From contig NZ_JAFKFW010000015.1 of the NCBI RefSeq assembly GCF_017308015.1, forward strand, positions 1 through 64,000: a stretch of DNA of 64,000 bases. Direction: 5' to 3'. The DNA comes from Allobosea sp. GTDB taxonomy: Bacteria > Pseudomonadota > Alphaproteobacteria > Rhizobiales > Beijerinckiaceae. Made by a program: the position numbers and the translations under genes. The notes below the pieces were generated by a model that made no database searches, had not been told where the DNA came from, and was given only the letters and a program-made list of their open reading frames with translations. This document shows positions 29,287 to 35,632 of this stretch, one piece after another; position 1 is the stretch's first letter; each line of letters opens with the position of its first letter.

Positions 29287-30465
29287 TCAGAGCAGCCCGC
29301 GCCCGGCGAGGTGGCGCATCAGATGCGAGGCGCCATAGGTCCAGGGCGCACATTCGTCGGTGCGCTTCATCCGGTTGACGAGGCTGCCGAGCTCGGGCGC
29401 GGCGATGGTGACGATGTCCCCGTATTTATGGGTGAAGCCACCGCCCGGCGCATCGCGATCCTTGATCGGCGCGAACATCGTGCCGAGGTAGAGCGCTGCC
29501 CCGTCCGGATACTGATGATGCGGGCCGATCATTTGCGCGGCCAGGTCGGCCGGGTCGCGACTGATCTTCGCGATCGAGGAAGAGCCCTCCAGCGTGAAGC
29601 CGTCCTCGCCCGCGACCGTCAGCGTCACGGTCGTCCTGCGGACATGATCGAGCGTGAAGCCGGCATCGAACAGGCGGATGAAGGGGCCGACGGCCGCGGC
29701 GGCGTTGTTGTCCTTGGCCTTGCCGAGCAGGAGCGCCGAGCGGCCCTCGACATCGCGCAGGTTGACGTCGTTGCCGAGCGTGGCGCCGACGATTGCGCCG
29801 GTCGAGGCGACGACCAGCACGATCTCGGGCTCGGGATTGTTCCAGCTCGAGGCCGGATGCAGGCCGGCATCCGCGCCGGTACCGACCGTCGACATCGGTG
29901 GGGCCTTGGTGAAGATCTCGGCATCCGGCCCGATGCCGACTTCGAGATACTGGCTCCAGGCGCCCTGCTTGATCAGCACCTCCTTGAGACGCATCGCCTC
30001 CGGCGAGCCGGGCTTCAGCTTGGAGAGATCATCGCCGATGAGCTTGCCGATTTCCGCGCGGATCGTCGCGGCGGCGGCCGGGTTGCCGCGCGCCTTCTCC
30101 TCGATCACGCGCTCCAGCATCGAGACCGCGAAGGTGACGCCGGCGGCCTTCACCGCCTGCAGATCGAGGGGCGAGAGGAGCCAGGGCCGCTTCGGATCGC
30201 GGCCGTCCACGGGCGTGTTTGCGAGAATGTCGGCGAGCGAGCCGATCGCCTCGCCGTCGGCGGCGCGCAGCGCGGCGGCCGGTTCGTGACTTTCGCAGAG
30301 ATCCCGGCTGGTCGGGAAACTCCTGGTCACGTCCACGACCTGCCCGCCGCGGAGCGTCACCACGGCCGGTCCGCCGATCTCGGGGCGCCAGACGCGGCCG
30401 GCGAGTGCGGCGGCATCGGCGTCTACCGGCAAGGTTGCGGTCGCGGAAAGATCGAGGCTGGGCAT
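29287..30465 (-). CDS. fumarylacetoacetate hydrolase family protein
   Basis: A 392-residue protein whose C-terminal half is an FAH fold. N-N-P-E-P-E-I-V-L-V and G-N-D-V-N-L-R-D supply the usual metal ligands, and G-T-G-A-D-A lies before them. The long N-terminal region (about 170 residues) resembles sugar-acid dehydratase members of the family more than FahA itself. So a 2-keto-3-deoxy sugar acid or similar oxo-acid is the likely substrate class (inference). GTG 30477 would add four residues. It is divergent from ugpB, with a shared 199-base control region. Confidence 0.78.
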   Translation of the reverse strand: MPSLDLSATATLPVDADAAALAGRVWRPEIGGPAVVTLRGGQVVDVTRSFPTSRDLCESHEPAAALRAADGEAIGSLADILANTPVDGRDPKRPWLLSPLDLQAVKAAGVTFAVSMLERVIEEKARGNPAAAATIRAEIGKLIGDDLSKLKPGSPEAMRLKEVLIKQGAWSQYLEVGIGPDAEIFTKAPPMSTVGTGADAGLHPASSWNNPEPEIVLVVASTGAIVGATLGNDVNLRDVEGRSALLLGKAKDNNAAAAVGPFIRLFDAGFTLDHVRRTTVTLTVAGEDGFTLEGSSSIAKISRDPADLAAQMIGPHHQYPDGAALYLGTMFAPIKDRDAPGGGFTHKYGDIVTIAAPELGSLVNRMKRTDECAPWTYGASHLMRHLAGRGLL

Positions 30466-30562
30466 GGCGGCATCCACGAAGCGGGTTCGGATAGGCTGAG
30501 CAGATCAGCCGGTTATGCGCGAATGTGCAAGCCGCCCCCAGACCATAGGCGGATTGCGCCGG

Positions 30563-30591
30563 CTGTCATCGATTTGTCATTGAAATGTCGC
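30563..30591 (+). promoter_or_regulatory. Pho box upstream of ugpB
   Basis: CTGTCAT-CGAT-TTGTCAT followed by TGAA-ATGTCGC: three 7-base units spaced every 11 bases, the tandem layout PhoB binds. The first two units match the consensus CTGTCAT at 7 and 6 of 7 positions. A possible -10 (TACATG, 30598-30603) follows at a suitable distance, so the box would replace the -35 as in known Pho promoters. The ugpB start codon is about 75 bases downstream. Confidence 0.85.
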
Positions 30592-30664: not shown

Positions 30665-31990
30665 ATGACCATCAAATCGCGCATCCTGATGTCGGTCGCG
30701 GCTTTTGCGCTCGCTGGCGCCTCGCCTGCCCTGGCGCAGACCGAGATCCAGTGGTGGCACGCGCTGACCGGCGCCAATAACGACGTTGTCGTCAAGCTCT
30801 CCGAGGACTTCAACGCCTCGCAGAAGGACTACAAGGTCGTACCCGTTTACAAGGGCTCCTATCCCGACACGCTGAATGCCGGCATCGCCGCCTTCCGTGC
30901 CGGCCAGGCCCCGCATATCCTGCAGGTCTTCGAGGTCGGCACCGGCACGATGATGTCGGCCAAGGGCGCGATCAAGCCGGTCCACGAGATCATGAAGGAA
31001 GCCGGCGAGAAGTTCGATCCGAACGCCTATCTGCCTGCGATCACCGGTTATTATTCGACGGCCAAGGGCGAGATGCTCTCGATGCCGTTCAACTCCTCGT
31101 CGATGGTGATGTGGTACAACAAGGACGCCTTCAAGAAGGCGGGCCTCGACCCGGCCAAGCCGCCGAAGACCTGGCCCGAGACCTTCGAGGCCGCCAAGAA
31201 GCTGAAGGCTGCCGGCTACGACAAGTGCGGCGTCTCGAACGCCTGGGCGACCTGGGCCAATATCGAGCAGTTCGGCGCTTGGCACAACATCGCGCTCTCG
31301 ACGAAGGTCAATGGCATGGCCGGTTTCGACGCCGTGCTGGAGTTCAACAAGAGCCCGGCTTTCCTGAAGCACTGGACCAACCTGGTCGAGCTGCAGAAGG
31401 ACAAGACCTATGACTATTCCGGCCGCACCAACAATGGCGAAGGCCGCTTCACCTCGGGCGAATGCCCGATCTTCCTGACCTCCTCGGGCTTCTTCGGCAA
31501 CGTCAGGGCGAACGCCAAGTTCGACTGGGGCAATGCGCCGATGCCGTATTATCCTGACGTGCAGGGCGCCCCGCAGAACTCGATCATCGGTGGCGCTTCG
31601 CTCTGGGTGATGGGTGGCAAGAAGGCCGACGAATACAAGGGTGTCGCGAAGTTCTTCACCTTCCTCTCGAATGTCGATCGTCAGGTGAAGCTGCATACCG
31701 AGTCGGGCTATCTGCCGATCACCAAGGCGGCCTACGAGAAGGTCAAGGAATCCGGCTTCTACAAGGACAAGCCCTATCTCGAGACCCCGATCCTGGAGCT
31801 GACCAACAAGGCTCCGACCGATAATTCGAAGGGCCTGCGCTATGGCAGCCTCGTCCAGATCCGCGACATCTGGTCGGAGGAGCTGGAGGCGGCGCTGAAC
31901 GGCCAGAAGTCGCCGCAGGCGGCGCTGGACGCGGCGGCCGAGCGCGGCAACCAGATGCTGCGCCAGTTCGAGCGTACCGCCGCCCGCTGA
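30665..31990 (+). CDS. ugpB: sn-glycerol-3-phosphate ABC transporter binding protein
   Basis: A 441-residue periplasmic binding protein with a signal peptide ending A-L-A-Q (about residue 25). It opens with I-Q-W-W-H-A-L-T-G and has [13 protein letters not shown], both typical of UgpB, which captures glycerol 3-phosphate and glycerophosphodiesters during phosphate shortage. AAGGGAG precedes ATG 30665. A Pho box upstream and the ugpA/E/C genes downstream support the assignment. A strong hairpin follows the stop codon. Confidence 0.93.
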
Positions 31991-32066: not shown

Positions 32067-32948
32067 ATGCAGAAGAACGCATACTTCAAGGGGCTGACGA
32101 TCCCCTTCCTGCTGCTTCTGCCGCAGCTCGCCATCACCGTCGTGTTCTTCTACTGGCCGGCGAGCCAGGCGGTCTGGCAGAGCTTCCTGCTCGAGGATGC
32201 CTTCGGTACATCGACGGAATTCGTCTGGTTCGAGAACTACCAGATGCTGTTCGCCGATCCCGGCTATCTGAAGGCCTTCGTCAATACGGTCATCTTCTCG
32301 ACCTTCGTCTGCGTGTTCTCGCTCTCGATTGCGCTGCTCTTCGCCGTGATGGCGGACCGGCAGATCCGCGGCGCCGAAATCTACAAGACCCTCCTGATCT
32401 GGCCCTATGCGGTGGCGCCTGCGATTGCCGGCGTGCTTTGGCTCTTCATGTTCGATCCTTCGCTCGGCATGCTGGCGCGCGGCCTGCAATCCCTAGGTAT
32501 TCCGTGGAATCCGCGCCTCAACGGCAACCATGCCATGCTGCTGGTCATCCTCGCGGCGACCTGGAAGCAGATCAGCTACAATTTCCTGTTCTTCCTCGCC
32601 GGCCTGCAGTCGATCCCGAAGAGCGTGATCGAGGCGGCCGTGATCGACGGCGCCCGGCCGATGCGCCGGTTCTGGACCATCGTCTTCCCGCTGCTCTCGC
32701 CGACGACCTTCTTCCTGCTCGTCGTCAACATCGTCTATGTCTTCTTCGACACCTTCGGCATCATCGACACCATGACCGGCGGCGGTCCCTCGGGCGAGAC
32801 CGAAACGCTGGTCTACAAGGTCTTCTCCGACGGCAAGGGCGGCTCCAATCTCGGCGGCTCGGCGGCGCAGTCGGTGCTGCTGCTGATCATGGTGATCGGC
32901 CTGACCGCGGTCCAGTTCCGCTTCATCGAGCGCAAGGTCAGCTACTGA
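32067..32948 (+). CDS. ugpA: sn-glycerol-3-phosphate ABC transporter permease UgpA
   Basis: A 293-residue inner-membrane permease with six helices. The cytoplasmic coupling loop reads [10 protein letters not shown] near residue 190, the standard EAA motif that docks on UgpC. N-terminal [15 protein letters not shown] matches UgpA. The stop overlaps the next start by one base (TGATG), but that next gene is the creatininase, not ugpE. Confidence 0.93.
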
Positions 32949-33697
32949 TGGCCTCCGTGCTCTGGATGGATCTCACCGCCGAGGAACTGCGCGCCAAGGC
33001 GGCGACGGACGCCATCGTCGTCCTGCCCGTCGCCTCCATCGAACAGCACGGCCCGCATCTGCCCGTCGGCGTGGACACGATCCTGTGCAGCGGCGTCTGC
33101 AAGGCTGCGGCCGAGCGTGCCGGTGATGTCGATGTGGTGGTCGCGCCCACGCTCTGGTGCGGCATGGCCGAGCATCACATGGCTTTCGGCGGCACCTTCA
33201 CCTTCGACATCCCGACCTATCGCGCCGTGCTGCTCTCCTTCCTCAAGAGCATTGAGCGCCACGGTTTCCATCGCGTGCTGATCGTCAACGGCCATGGCGG
33301 CAACATTGCCGCGCTCACGGCCTTCCTGCCGGATTTTGCGGGCGAGACGAGCCTCCATGTCGAGGTGACGACCTATTTCATGCTGGCGCAGGACGCATTC
33401 CCGCCCTTGCTGCAAGACCAGCAGGGCGTCCAGCATGCCTGCGAGGTCGAGACCTCGATGATGATGGTGCTGGCGCCGGGCTCGGTCCGCGAGCCGCGTC
33501 TTCCGGAAGCCTTCGGCGCGCTGGATCGTGCCCCGCGCCGGCAGGTCGTCTCGCGCCACCGCTCCTTCCGGGAGATGACCGATACCGGGGTGGTCGGCGA
33601 CGCCCGCCGCGCCACACCTGAGAAGGGCCGGGCCTGCCTCGATGCCTGCGCCGACGCGCTGGCCGGATTGCTGCGCGAGATGGGGAGGGCCGCCTGA
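32948..33697 (+). CDS. creatininase family amidohydrolase embedded in the ugp operon
   Basis: A 249-residue protein of the creatininase fold, whose members are metal-dependent amidohydrolases or deformylases (creatininase, the archaeal ArfB deformylase, MftE peptidase). The metal set is complete: E32 and H34 in S-I-E-Q-H-G-P-H, D43 in G-V-D, the N-G-H-G-G-N motif at 114-119, and a later Glu in H-A-C-E-V-E-T. It lies between ugpA and ugpE, its start overlapping the ugpA stop by one base and its stop overlapping the ugpE start by one base. It is thus made with the transporter and, by the Pho box, on phosphate shortage. The substrate is not known; hydrolysis of an amide-bearing glycerophospho compound is one possibility. 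Confidence 0.88.
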   Translation: MASVLWMDLTAEELRAKAATDAIVVLPVASIEQHGPHLPVGVDTILCSGVCKAAAERAGDVDVVVAPTLWCGMAEHHMAFGGTFTFDIPTYRAVLLSFLKSIERHGFHRVLIVNGHGGNIAALTAFLPDFAGETSLHVEVTTYFMLAQDAFPPLLQDQQGVQHACEVETSMMMVLAPGSVREPRLPEAFGALDRAPRRQVVSRHRSFREMTDTGVVGDARRATPEKGRACLDACADALAGLLREMGRAA

Positions 33698-34545
33698 TGG
33701 TCGAGGACCGCCGCCTGGGCGACCTGATCGCCTATGTCATCCTGACGATCGGCGTGCTGATCGTCGCCTTCCCTGTCTGGCTGACCTTCGTCGCCTCGAC
33801 CTGGGACGCGGCGACCGTGATCAATGGCCAGATGCCGCTCTATCCCGGGCCGTATTTCCTGGAGAATTACAACCGCATCCTCTTCGTCGGCACGTCGGGC
33901 ACGACGCGCGAGCCGGTCATCGGGATGATGCTGAACTCCTTCGTCATGGCAATGGCGATCGCGCTCGGAAAGATCTTCATCTCCGTACTCTCGGCCTATG
34001 CGGTGGTCTATTACCGCTTTCCGTTCCGCATGGCGGCATTCTGGATCATCTTCGTCACGCTGATGCTCCCGGTCGAGGTCCGCATCTTCCCGACCTTCAA
34101 GATCGTGTCCGATCTCAACATGCTCGACACCTATCAGGGTCTTGCCGTGCCCCTGATCGCCTCGGCGACGGGCACGCTGCTCTTCCGGCAATTCTTCATG
34201 ACGATCCCCGACGAGTTGCTCGAGGCCTCCAAGATCGACGGCGCCGGTCCGTTCAGGTTCTTCAAGGACACGCTGATCCCGCTCTCGATGACGACGATCG
34301 CGGCACTCTTCGTCATCCAGTTCATCTATGGCTGGAACCAGTATCTCTGGCCGCTGCTGGTGACGACGAAGGACTCGATGCAGACCATCGTCATCGCCAT
34401 CAAGAAGATGATCGTCACCGCCGACGCCCTGACGGAATGGCAGCTCGCGATGGCCACGGCCATGCTGGCGATGCTCCCGCCCGTCCTCGTCGTCATCGCC
34501 ATGCAGAGGCTCTTCGTGAAGGGCCTGGTCGAAACCGAGAAGTAA
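33697..34545 (+). CDS. ugpE: sn-glycerol-3-phosphate ABC transporter permease UgpE
   Basis: A 282-residue permease with six helices, partner of UgpA. The EAA loop reads [10 protein letters not shown] near residue 180, and the C-terminal half has [11 protein letters not shown], a hallmark of UgpE/MalG-type subunits. It begins at the last base of the creatininase stop codon; ugpC follows after seven bases. Confidence 0.93.
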
Positions 34546-34552
34546 TCCGCGA

Positions 34553-35632
34553 ATGGCCCAGGTCACTCTCAGCAACGTCAAGAAGGTCTATGCCGGCGGC
34601 GTCGAAGCCGTGAAGGGCGTCTCCTTCGACATTCCCGATGGCGGCTTCTGCGTGTTGGTCGGCCCCTCCGGCTGCGGCAAGTCCACGCTGCTGCGCATGG
34701 TCGCCGGTCTCGAGACGATTTCGTCCGGTGAGGTCGCGATCGGCAATCGCGTCGTCAACGAGATCGAGCCGGCCGACCGCGACATCGCCATGGTGTTCCA
34801 GAATTATGCGCTCTACCCGCATATGAACATCTACGACAACATGGCCTATGGCCTGCGCAACCGCGGCACGCCCAAGGACGAGATCGACAAGCGCGTGAAG
34901 GAAGCCGCCCGCATCCTCGCGATCGAGCCCTTCCTTGAGCGCCGGCCGCGCCAGCTCTCCGGCGGCCAGCGCCAGCGCGTCGCCATGGGCCGCGCCATCG
35001 TGCGCAAGCCGCAGGTCTTCCTGTTCGACGAGCCGCTCTCGAACCTCGACGCCAAGCTGCGCGTCCAGATGCGCGTCGAGATCAAGAAGCTCCAGCGCGC
35101 GCTCGGCGTCACCGCGATCTACGTCACCCATGATCAGGTCGAGGCGATGACGCTCTCCGACAAGCTGGTCGTGATGAATGCCGGCCAGGTCGAGCAGATC
35201 GGCCTGCCGGCCGAGGTCTACCGCAAGCCGGCGAGCAAGTTCGTCGCAACCTTCATCGGCTCGCCTCCGATGAACATCCTGCCCGGTGCGGTCGATGGCC
35301 ACGGCATCGTCGCGCTCGGCGATGCCATCATCGAGGTCCGCGACCTGCGCGAGGATCTGGCGGCGCAGGCGCCGGTCGAGATCGGCCTGCGTCCCGAGGA
35401 TGTCGAGATCGCCTCGGAAGGGCAGGCGGGCTCGCTGCCCTTCGACGTCGAGTTCATCGAGGAACTGGGCGCCACACAGCTCTTCCACGGCAAGCTGTCG
35501 GGTCACCCCTTCGTGATGCAGGCGGCAACCGGCGAAGTCGCGGCACAGGAAGGCCGGCTCTGGATCACCGTCGATCCCGACAAGGTCCACGTCTTCGATC
35601 CGAAGAGCGGGGCGCGGCTGGGGAAGGGCTGA
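34553..35632 (+). CDS. ugpC: sn-glycerol-3-phosphate ABC transporter ATPase
   Basis: A 359-residue ATPase. The nucleotide-binding domain has G-P-S-G-C-G-K-S-T (Walker A, near 37), L-S-G-G-Q-R-Q-R-V (signature, near 135), [11 protein letters not shown] (Walker B and D-loop) and T-H-D-Q-V-E (switch). The C-terminal 110 residues form the TOBE/OB regulatory region (I-G-S-P-P-M-N onward) of the MalK/UgpC class. Last gene of the operon; a palindromic repeat follows. Confidence 0.94.

Follow-up and report, generated by a model that had tools for sequence, protein, structure and literature searches.

The locus described here raises the question of what a gene for a creatininase-family hydrolase (crn) is doing between ugpA and ugpE, the two permease genes of one importer. 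It lies in a window of 64,000 nucleotides from Allobosea sp. (contig NZ_JAFKFW010000015.1, positions 1 to 64,000), by which we mean the whole stretch of DNA that was analyzed. The arrangement is real and unusual, with crn in the ugp operon of Bosea and of some of its relatives. Annotation as creatinine amidohydrolase is common for proteins of the creatininase family, though proven members catalyze different reactions. In more than one genus, a member sits in an operon that probably responds to phosphate starvation, which supplies a condition under which its physiology can be tested and a short list of organisms for a substrate search. An earlier note on this DNA had proposed that the hydrolase acts on an imported glycerophospho compound bearing an amide or formyl group. 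We put the chances at about even for a different reading, namely, that a probably Pho-regulated ugp operon took in a hydrolase of small amides or formamides and that the two would be linked by their common expression, not by a special glycerophospho substrate.

Organization of the operon and identity of the importer

The products of ugpB, ugpA, ugpE, and ugpC each score above the curated NCBIfam cutoff for the respective subunit of the Ugp glycerol-3-phosphate importer (Table 1), and since all four do so, an importer for another sugar was rejected. The best PDB matches of UgpB are 9lff, 4aq4, and 6x84. Mapped by hand on the alignment with 9lff, its residues E90, W194, W197, G310, and R400 coincide with ligand residues that the portion of PMC12718374 available to us names for the binding of small glycerol phosphates; the mapping covers these five positions and leaves aside two tyrosines and two serines also named there.

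As the earlier note had it, crn is an intact gene between the two permease genes, with the ugpA/crn and crn/ugpE junctions of the window each reading TGATGG, a one-base overlap of stop and start. Because of this overlap with both neighbors, crn is expected to be produced along with the transporter. The gene ugpQ was not found among the genes read adjacent to the operon, and the two GDPD genes that were found both lie on contigs other than that of the operon. An FAH-like gene, scoring just under the Pfam cutoff, is divergent and faces ugpB (29287-30477, minus strand). A tie between this gene and crn was rejected, as it is found upstream of the operon in L169, which has crn, and in L164, L165, L166, and L172, which lack crn, and is missing in L171, itself without crn.

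Table 1. Features of the window's ugp operon and small orphan genes occupying the ugpA/ugpE slot in other loci
Feature	Coordinates	Strand	Evidence or remark
Pho-box-like site CTGTCAT-N4-TTGTCAT, upstream of ugpB	30563..30580	+	13/14 consensus positions
ugpB, glycerol-3-phosphate binding protein	30665..31990	+	NCBIfam NF008211, 529.7 bits vs cutoff 411
ugpA, permease	32067..32948	+	NF007852, 367.1 bits vs cutoff 335
crn, creatininase-family hydrolase, 249 aa	32948..33697	+	PF02633
ugpE, permease	33697..34545	+	NF008210, 385.8 bits vs cutoff 297
ugpC, ATP-binding protein	34553..35632	+	NF008653, 542.5 bits vs cutoff 432
Small orphan protein gene	L006:962-1489		slot gene
Small orphan protein gene	L022:974-1501		slot gene
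Small orphan protein gene	L164:2597-3151	-	slot gene
Small orphan protein gene	L166:792-1322	-	slot gene
Small orphan protein gene	L089:6424-6945		slot gene

The crn protein and its place in the family

The crn product matches PF02633 with 223.5 bits over residues 8-241 (cutoff, 31.3), and a creatininase fold is predicted for it. Its metal site is complete, as had been claimed: in an alignment of 46 sequences, E32, H34, D43, H116, and H163 are invariant, and E166 is at least 90% conserved. Going by work on creatininase, we take E32, H34, D43, H116, and E166 to be the likely metal ligands and H163 to be the likely acid/base. We infer that crn encodes a metal-dependent creatininase-family amidohydrolase, probably cytosolic, which would hydrolyze a small amide, lactam, or formamide. 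One member of the family, IolN, cleaves a carbon-carbon bond, so that amide chemistry is not certain for crn.

Assignment to named subfamilies was rejected against their equivalog cutoffs: true creatininase (TIGR04448, 109 bits versus 235), MftE (TIGR03964, 119.3 versus 172), IolN (NF041098, 72.9 versus 245), and ArfB (NF033501, 26.2 versus 180). Compared with creatininase CrnA (PDB 1j2t, 1q3k, and the 3a6 series), to which it is 26-29% identical, crn has G118 at the position of E122 and F144 at that of W154, and the loop with W174 aligns to a gap. These three creatininase residues presumably have functional roles, and with E122 and W154 replaced and the W174 loop in a gap, creatinine is not the expected substrate of crn.

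Three more creatininase-family genes are present in the window's genome, on contigs C9 (L175), C16 (L174), and C30 (L176); the one on C9 adjoins what appears by eye to be a spermidine/putrescine-type ABC transporter operon.

Distribution of the arrangement

A sample of 61 Bosea genomes was searched with UgpE, crn, and UgpA, and occupancy of the slot between ugpA and ugpE was judged by coordinates. The slot holds crn in 40 of these genomes, on which ground a strain-specific insertion was rejected; in two others (G070 and G078), a crn of 61-62% identity lies outside the slot, and in 19, none was found at an E value of 1e-40. In each of these 19, ugpA and ugpE share a contig, and in 10 they directly adjoin at the spacing of the overlap; such close relatives with the same ugp operon and no crn provide natural controls. 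Where crn occupies the slot, it begins at the one-base overlap with ugpA in 29 of the 40 genomes, at a distance of 142-172 bp in 7, and behind an extra gene in 4. On the ugpE side, the overlap is seen in 12 of the 40, which counts against our preferred reading, with distances of at most 29 bp in 27 and of 181 bp in one; these values rest on match ends, which can overstate the gap.

The arrangement extends beyond the genus. In a draw from the family, three of the eight UgpE-bearing members of a sister genus (G142, G554, and G620) have the order ugpA-crn-ugpE, which is thus recurrent and not unique to one strain, as the earlier note required. At least 592 loci came from named genomes, and among the best 80 of them the same order is seen in 9, 3 of these not labeled Bosea (L086, L089, and L090); the 9 may overlap with genomes of the other samples. 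As a class-wide control, 385 alphaproteobacterial genomes were searched for UgpA and UgpE, yielding 70 ugpE places, 69 of them with ugpA on the same contig. The two genes are no more than 50 bp apart in 67 of these 69 pairs, and the two exceptions, with gaps of 751 and 760 bp, belong to the window's own genome and to G142, both crn carriers. An insert at the junction is thus rare and bound to a lineage. We propose that crn entered the ugpA/ugpE junction in one part of the bacterial family.

Selection, history, and other occupants of the slot

One alternative is that crn is a passenger at a junction that tolerates inserts and has no functional tie to phosphate, which we regard as quite unlikely. 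In its favor, the junction accommodates other material. A second slot gene, of about 175 codons and lying between ugpA and either crn or ugpE, occurs in 9 of the 61 Bosea genomes and in L089, with or without crn; its product, of 174-185 aa, has by eye an N-terminal signal-like stretch. Of three such orphan proteins scanned against Pfam, two had no match and one had a match under the cutoff. A single search returned 24 homologs, and the four types that were compared are 23-39% alike over local stretches. Outside these nine, the gaps in the Bosea genomes are too short for the orphan gene, and ten such genomes carry short inserts of 115-181 bp in the slot. The inserts of about 140-180 bp lie right after ugpA in L008, L014, L018, and L023 and between crn and ugpE in L017; these five were read, and every one contains a single inverted repeat, the arms of which measure 13 to 47 nt. 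Also pointing to a passenger is the patchy occurrence of crn across a tree built from the UgpA and UgpE of 37 hand-chosen loci (24 with crn and 13 without; L059, from G068, and the very divergent L173 were left out), on which its presence changes at least seven times, four of these changes being forced by well-supported branches.

Against a passenger speak the overlap distance from ugpA retained in most carriers, the persistence of crn in the slot beyond Bosea, and the selection acting on the gene. The dN/dS values from 24 comparisons with the window are 0.094-0.417 for crn, 0.053-0.320 for ugpA, and 0.049-0.249 for ugpE. By these values, crn is under purifying selection and functional; its occurrence is patchy. 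Its dN exceeds that of ugpA in 22 of the 24 comparisons and that of ugpE in all 24, which we count against our own reading.

In trees of crn itself, identical proteins were counted once (142 of 185), and the incomplete L163 and L191 were left out, as were relatives below 43% identity with the exception of four outgroup rows. The 42 ugp-linked proteins fall in one group of 48 rows along with six from outside ugp operons. A single clade for all ugp-linked crn is rejected marginally (p-AU 0.042; 61 rows, with long branches present). The gene may have come into the slot twice, or it may have come in once and been lost from it twice.

Relatives of crn and the question of a special substrate

The core residues of crn were compared across 97 proteins with identities of 43% or more, of which 42 are ugp-linked and 55 are not, with the same incomplete and more distant sequences left out. 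In every group, ugp-linked and others alike, 42 positions are at least 90% conserved. The only positions enriched in the ugp-linked proteins (with a ceiling of 0.30 in the hydantoinase group and of 0.35 in the distant group) are V40, L99, F130, and V167, all of which are hydrophobic and none a metal ligand; V40, L99, and F130 are fixed also in three transaldolase-linked proteins. With the core residues the same in relatives outside ugp operons, a ugp-specific active site was rejected. Together, the shared core residues and the small-ligand residues of UgpB favor a general hydrolase of small amides or formamides, brought under phosphate control, over an enzyme for an imported glycerophospho amide.

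Some genomic neighbors of close relatives are in keeping with amide chemistry: genes for hydantoinase HyuA and an acetamidase/formamidase (Pfam-checked in L203), for a gamma-glutamyltransferase and a nitrile hydratase (Pfam-checked in L091), or for a C-N hydrolase (Pfam-checked in L098). Other relatives stand behind a transaldolase-family gene (one example Pfam-checked) or have no evident partners. Surveyed for a common partner, most of the 55 non-ugp relatives had no shared one, and by a crude gene call many stand alone; many neighbor names in this survey were read by eye from protein starts, and some were Pfam-checked. We count this result against our preferred reading, and because most of these relatives share no operon partner, the neighbors say little about the substrate of crn. 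Kinase genes also occur nearby: in G317, a relative and a glycerol kinase-like FGGY kinase gene are separated by about 1.2 kb, and at L202:6445-9896 a 66% identical crn is divergent from a cyclase-family gene, with an FGGY kinase gene similar to glycerol kinase following.

Probable phosphate regulation and the proposed role

A Pho-box-like site precedes ugpB in the window (Table 1). For what we take to be the Pho-box consensus, CTGTCAT-N4-CTGTCAT, we scanned the 250 bases before ugpB in this operon and in 22 more, some of which have crn and some of which do not. All 23 operons have their best site at 83-113 bases from the ugpB start, on the upstream side. In the window, none of 300 shuffles was as good, and the shuffle p value is at most 0.0134 in 22 operons and 0.053 in one (L165); base composition is the one property that the shuffles preserve, and among the 23 operons several are closely related to one another. 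The ugp operon probably belongs to the Pho regulon, and crn with it. With the operon probably phosphate regulated through this site, crn would probably be coexpressed with ugp under phosphate starvation.

The Pho-box-like site is equally part of the case for crn as a working part of the Ugp system, that is, an enzyme acting on a nitrogenous group (an amide, formamide, or N-acyl headgroup) of, or derived from, an imported glycerophospho compound and thereby yielding both phosphorus and nitrogen. This is close to what the earlier note had envisaged, and we consider it unlikely. It could call on the place that crn has long kept, and not in a single genus only, between subunits of the same transporter and on a possible second entry into the slot by a different crn lineage. 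However, the p-AU value behind such an entry is marginal and affected by long branches, the core residues are those of relatives outside ugp operons, UgpB keeps its five small-ligand residues, and nearly a third of the Bosea genomes do without crn, more than half of these with ugpA and ugpE directly joined. The earlier view is thus supported in part: the recurring arrangement and the probable phosphate regulation speak for it, and its special glycerophospho substrate is not supported. A broader version, in which a Pho-regulated ugp variant uses crn, sometimes with the small exported slot partner, to process a nitrogen-bearing organophosphorus import for phosphorus and nitrogen, with different crn lineages having entered the slot more than once, strikes us as very unlikely.

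We therefore return to the captured hydrolase of small amides or formamides. The enzyme would be produced alongside the transporter at times of phosphate scarcity, and any benefit to the cell would presumably be felt during such starvation.

Literature on the family and an alternative modeled on BrbF

No link of a creatininase to ugp or the Pho regulon appeared among the matches listed in the literature searched, in which few subscription journals were covered, in agreement with the earlier note, which knew of none. Among the papers listed, one has both creatininase and ugpA, a sponge metagenome study that treats them in separate sections of the portion available (PMC6742649). The creatininase passages of PMC12625717, PMC3023750, and PMC12797532 offer no substrate for the crn group.

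The closest precedent is BrbF of Sinorhizobium meliloti, described in the accessible part of PMC9478397 as a formamidase of the creatininase family whose substrate is AFRPP, a phosphorylated precursor of riboflavin. By analogy, BrbF shows that proteins of this family in Hyphomicrobiales can be formamidases. Hence, crn might deformylate or open a phosphorylated formamide in like manner, serving the repair or salvage of damaged nucleotides or flavin precursors under phosphate starvation; to this we assign a similarly low likelihood as to the passenger. Beyond the ribose phosphate substrate of BrbF and its occurrence in Hyphomicrobiales, the alternative has in its favor a 46% identical relative of crn, at L101:7001-10633, with a MarR gene adjoining and a CobW gene nearby, a setting that recalls the one reported for brbF. 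On the other hand, according to the same part of PMC9478397, complementation of a brbF mutant was unsuccessful with the Methylobacterium and Ochrobactrum homologs. Among the 120 matches listed for L101, the few named organisms are Bradyrhizobium, Methylobacterium, Lichenibacterium, and Acidisphaera, with no Sinorhizobium or Brucella, and BrbF itself (SMc02977) was not identified among the matches listed for plasmid records and homologs. The three other creatininase-family genes of the window's genome are also candidates for the BrbF role.

Comparison with known systems

Like the standard ugpBAEC operon, that of the window has all four subunits in the usual order; unlike it, it has an additional gene between ugpA and ugpE. 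At the protein level, the mycofactocin peptidase MftE is the best NCBIfam match of crn, though below the cutoff. With BrbF, crn shares membership in the creatininase family and a home in Hyphomicrobiales; according to the available text of PMC9478397, BrbF was at first annotated as creatinine amidohydrolase. The two were compared by their settings, which differ: brbF lies with MarR and CobW genes, whereas crn lies within a ugp operon.
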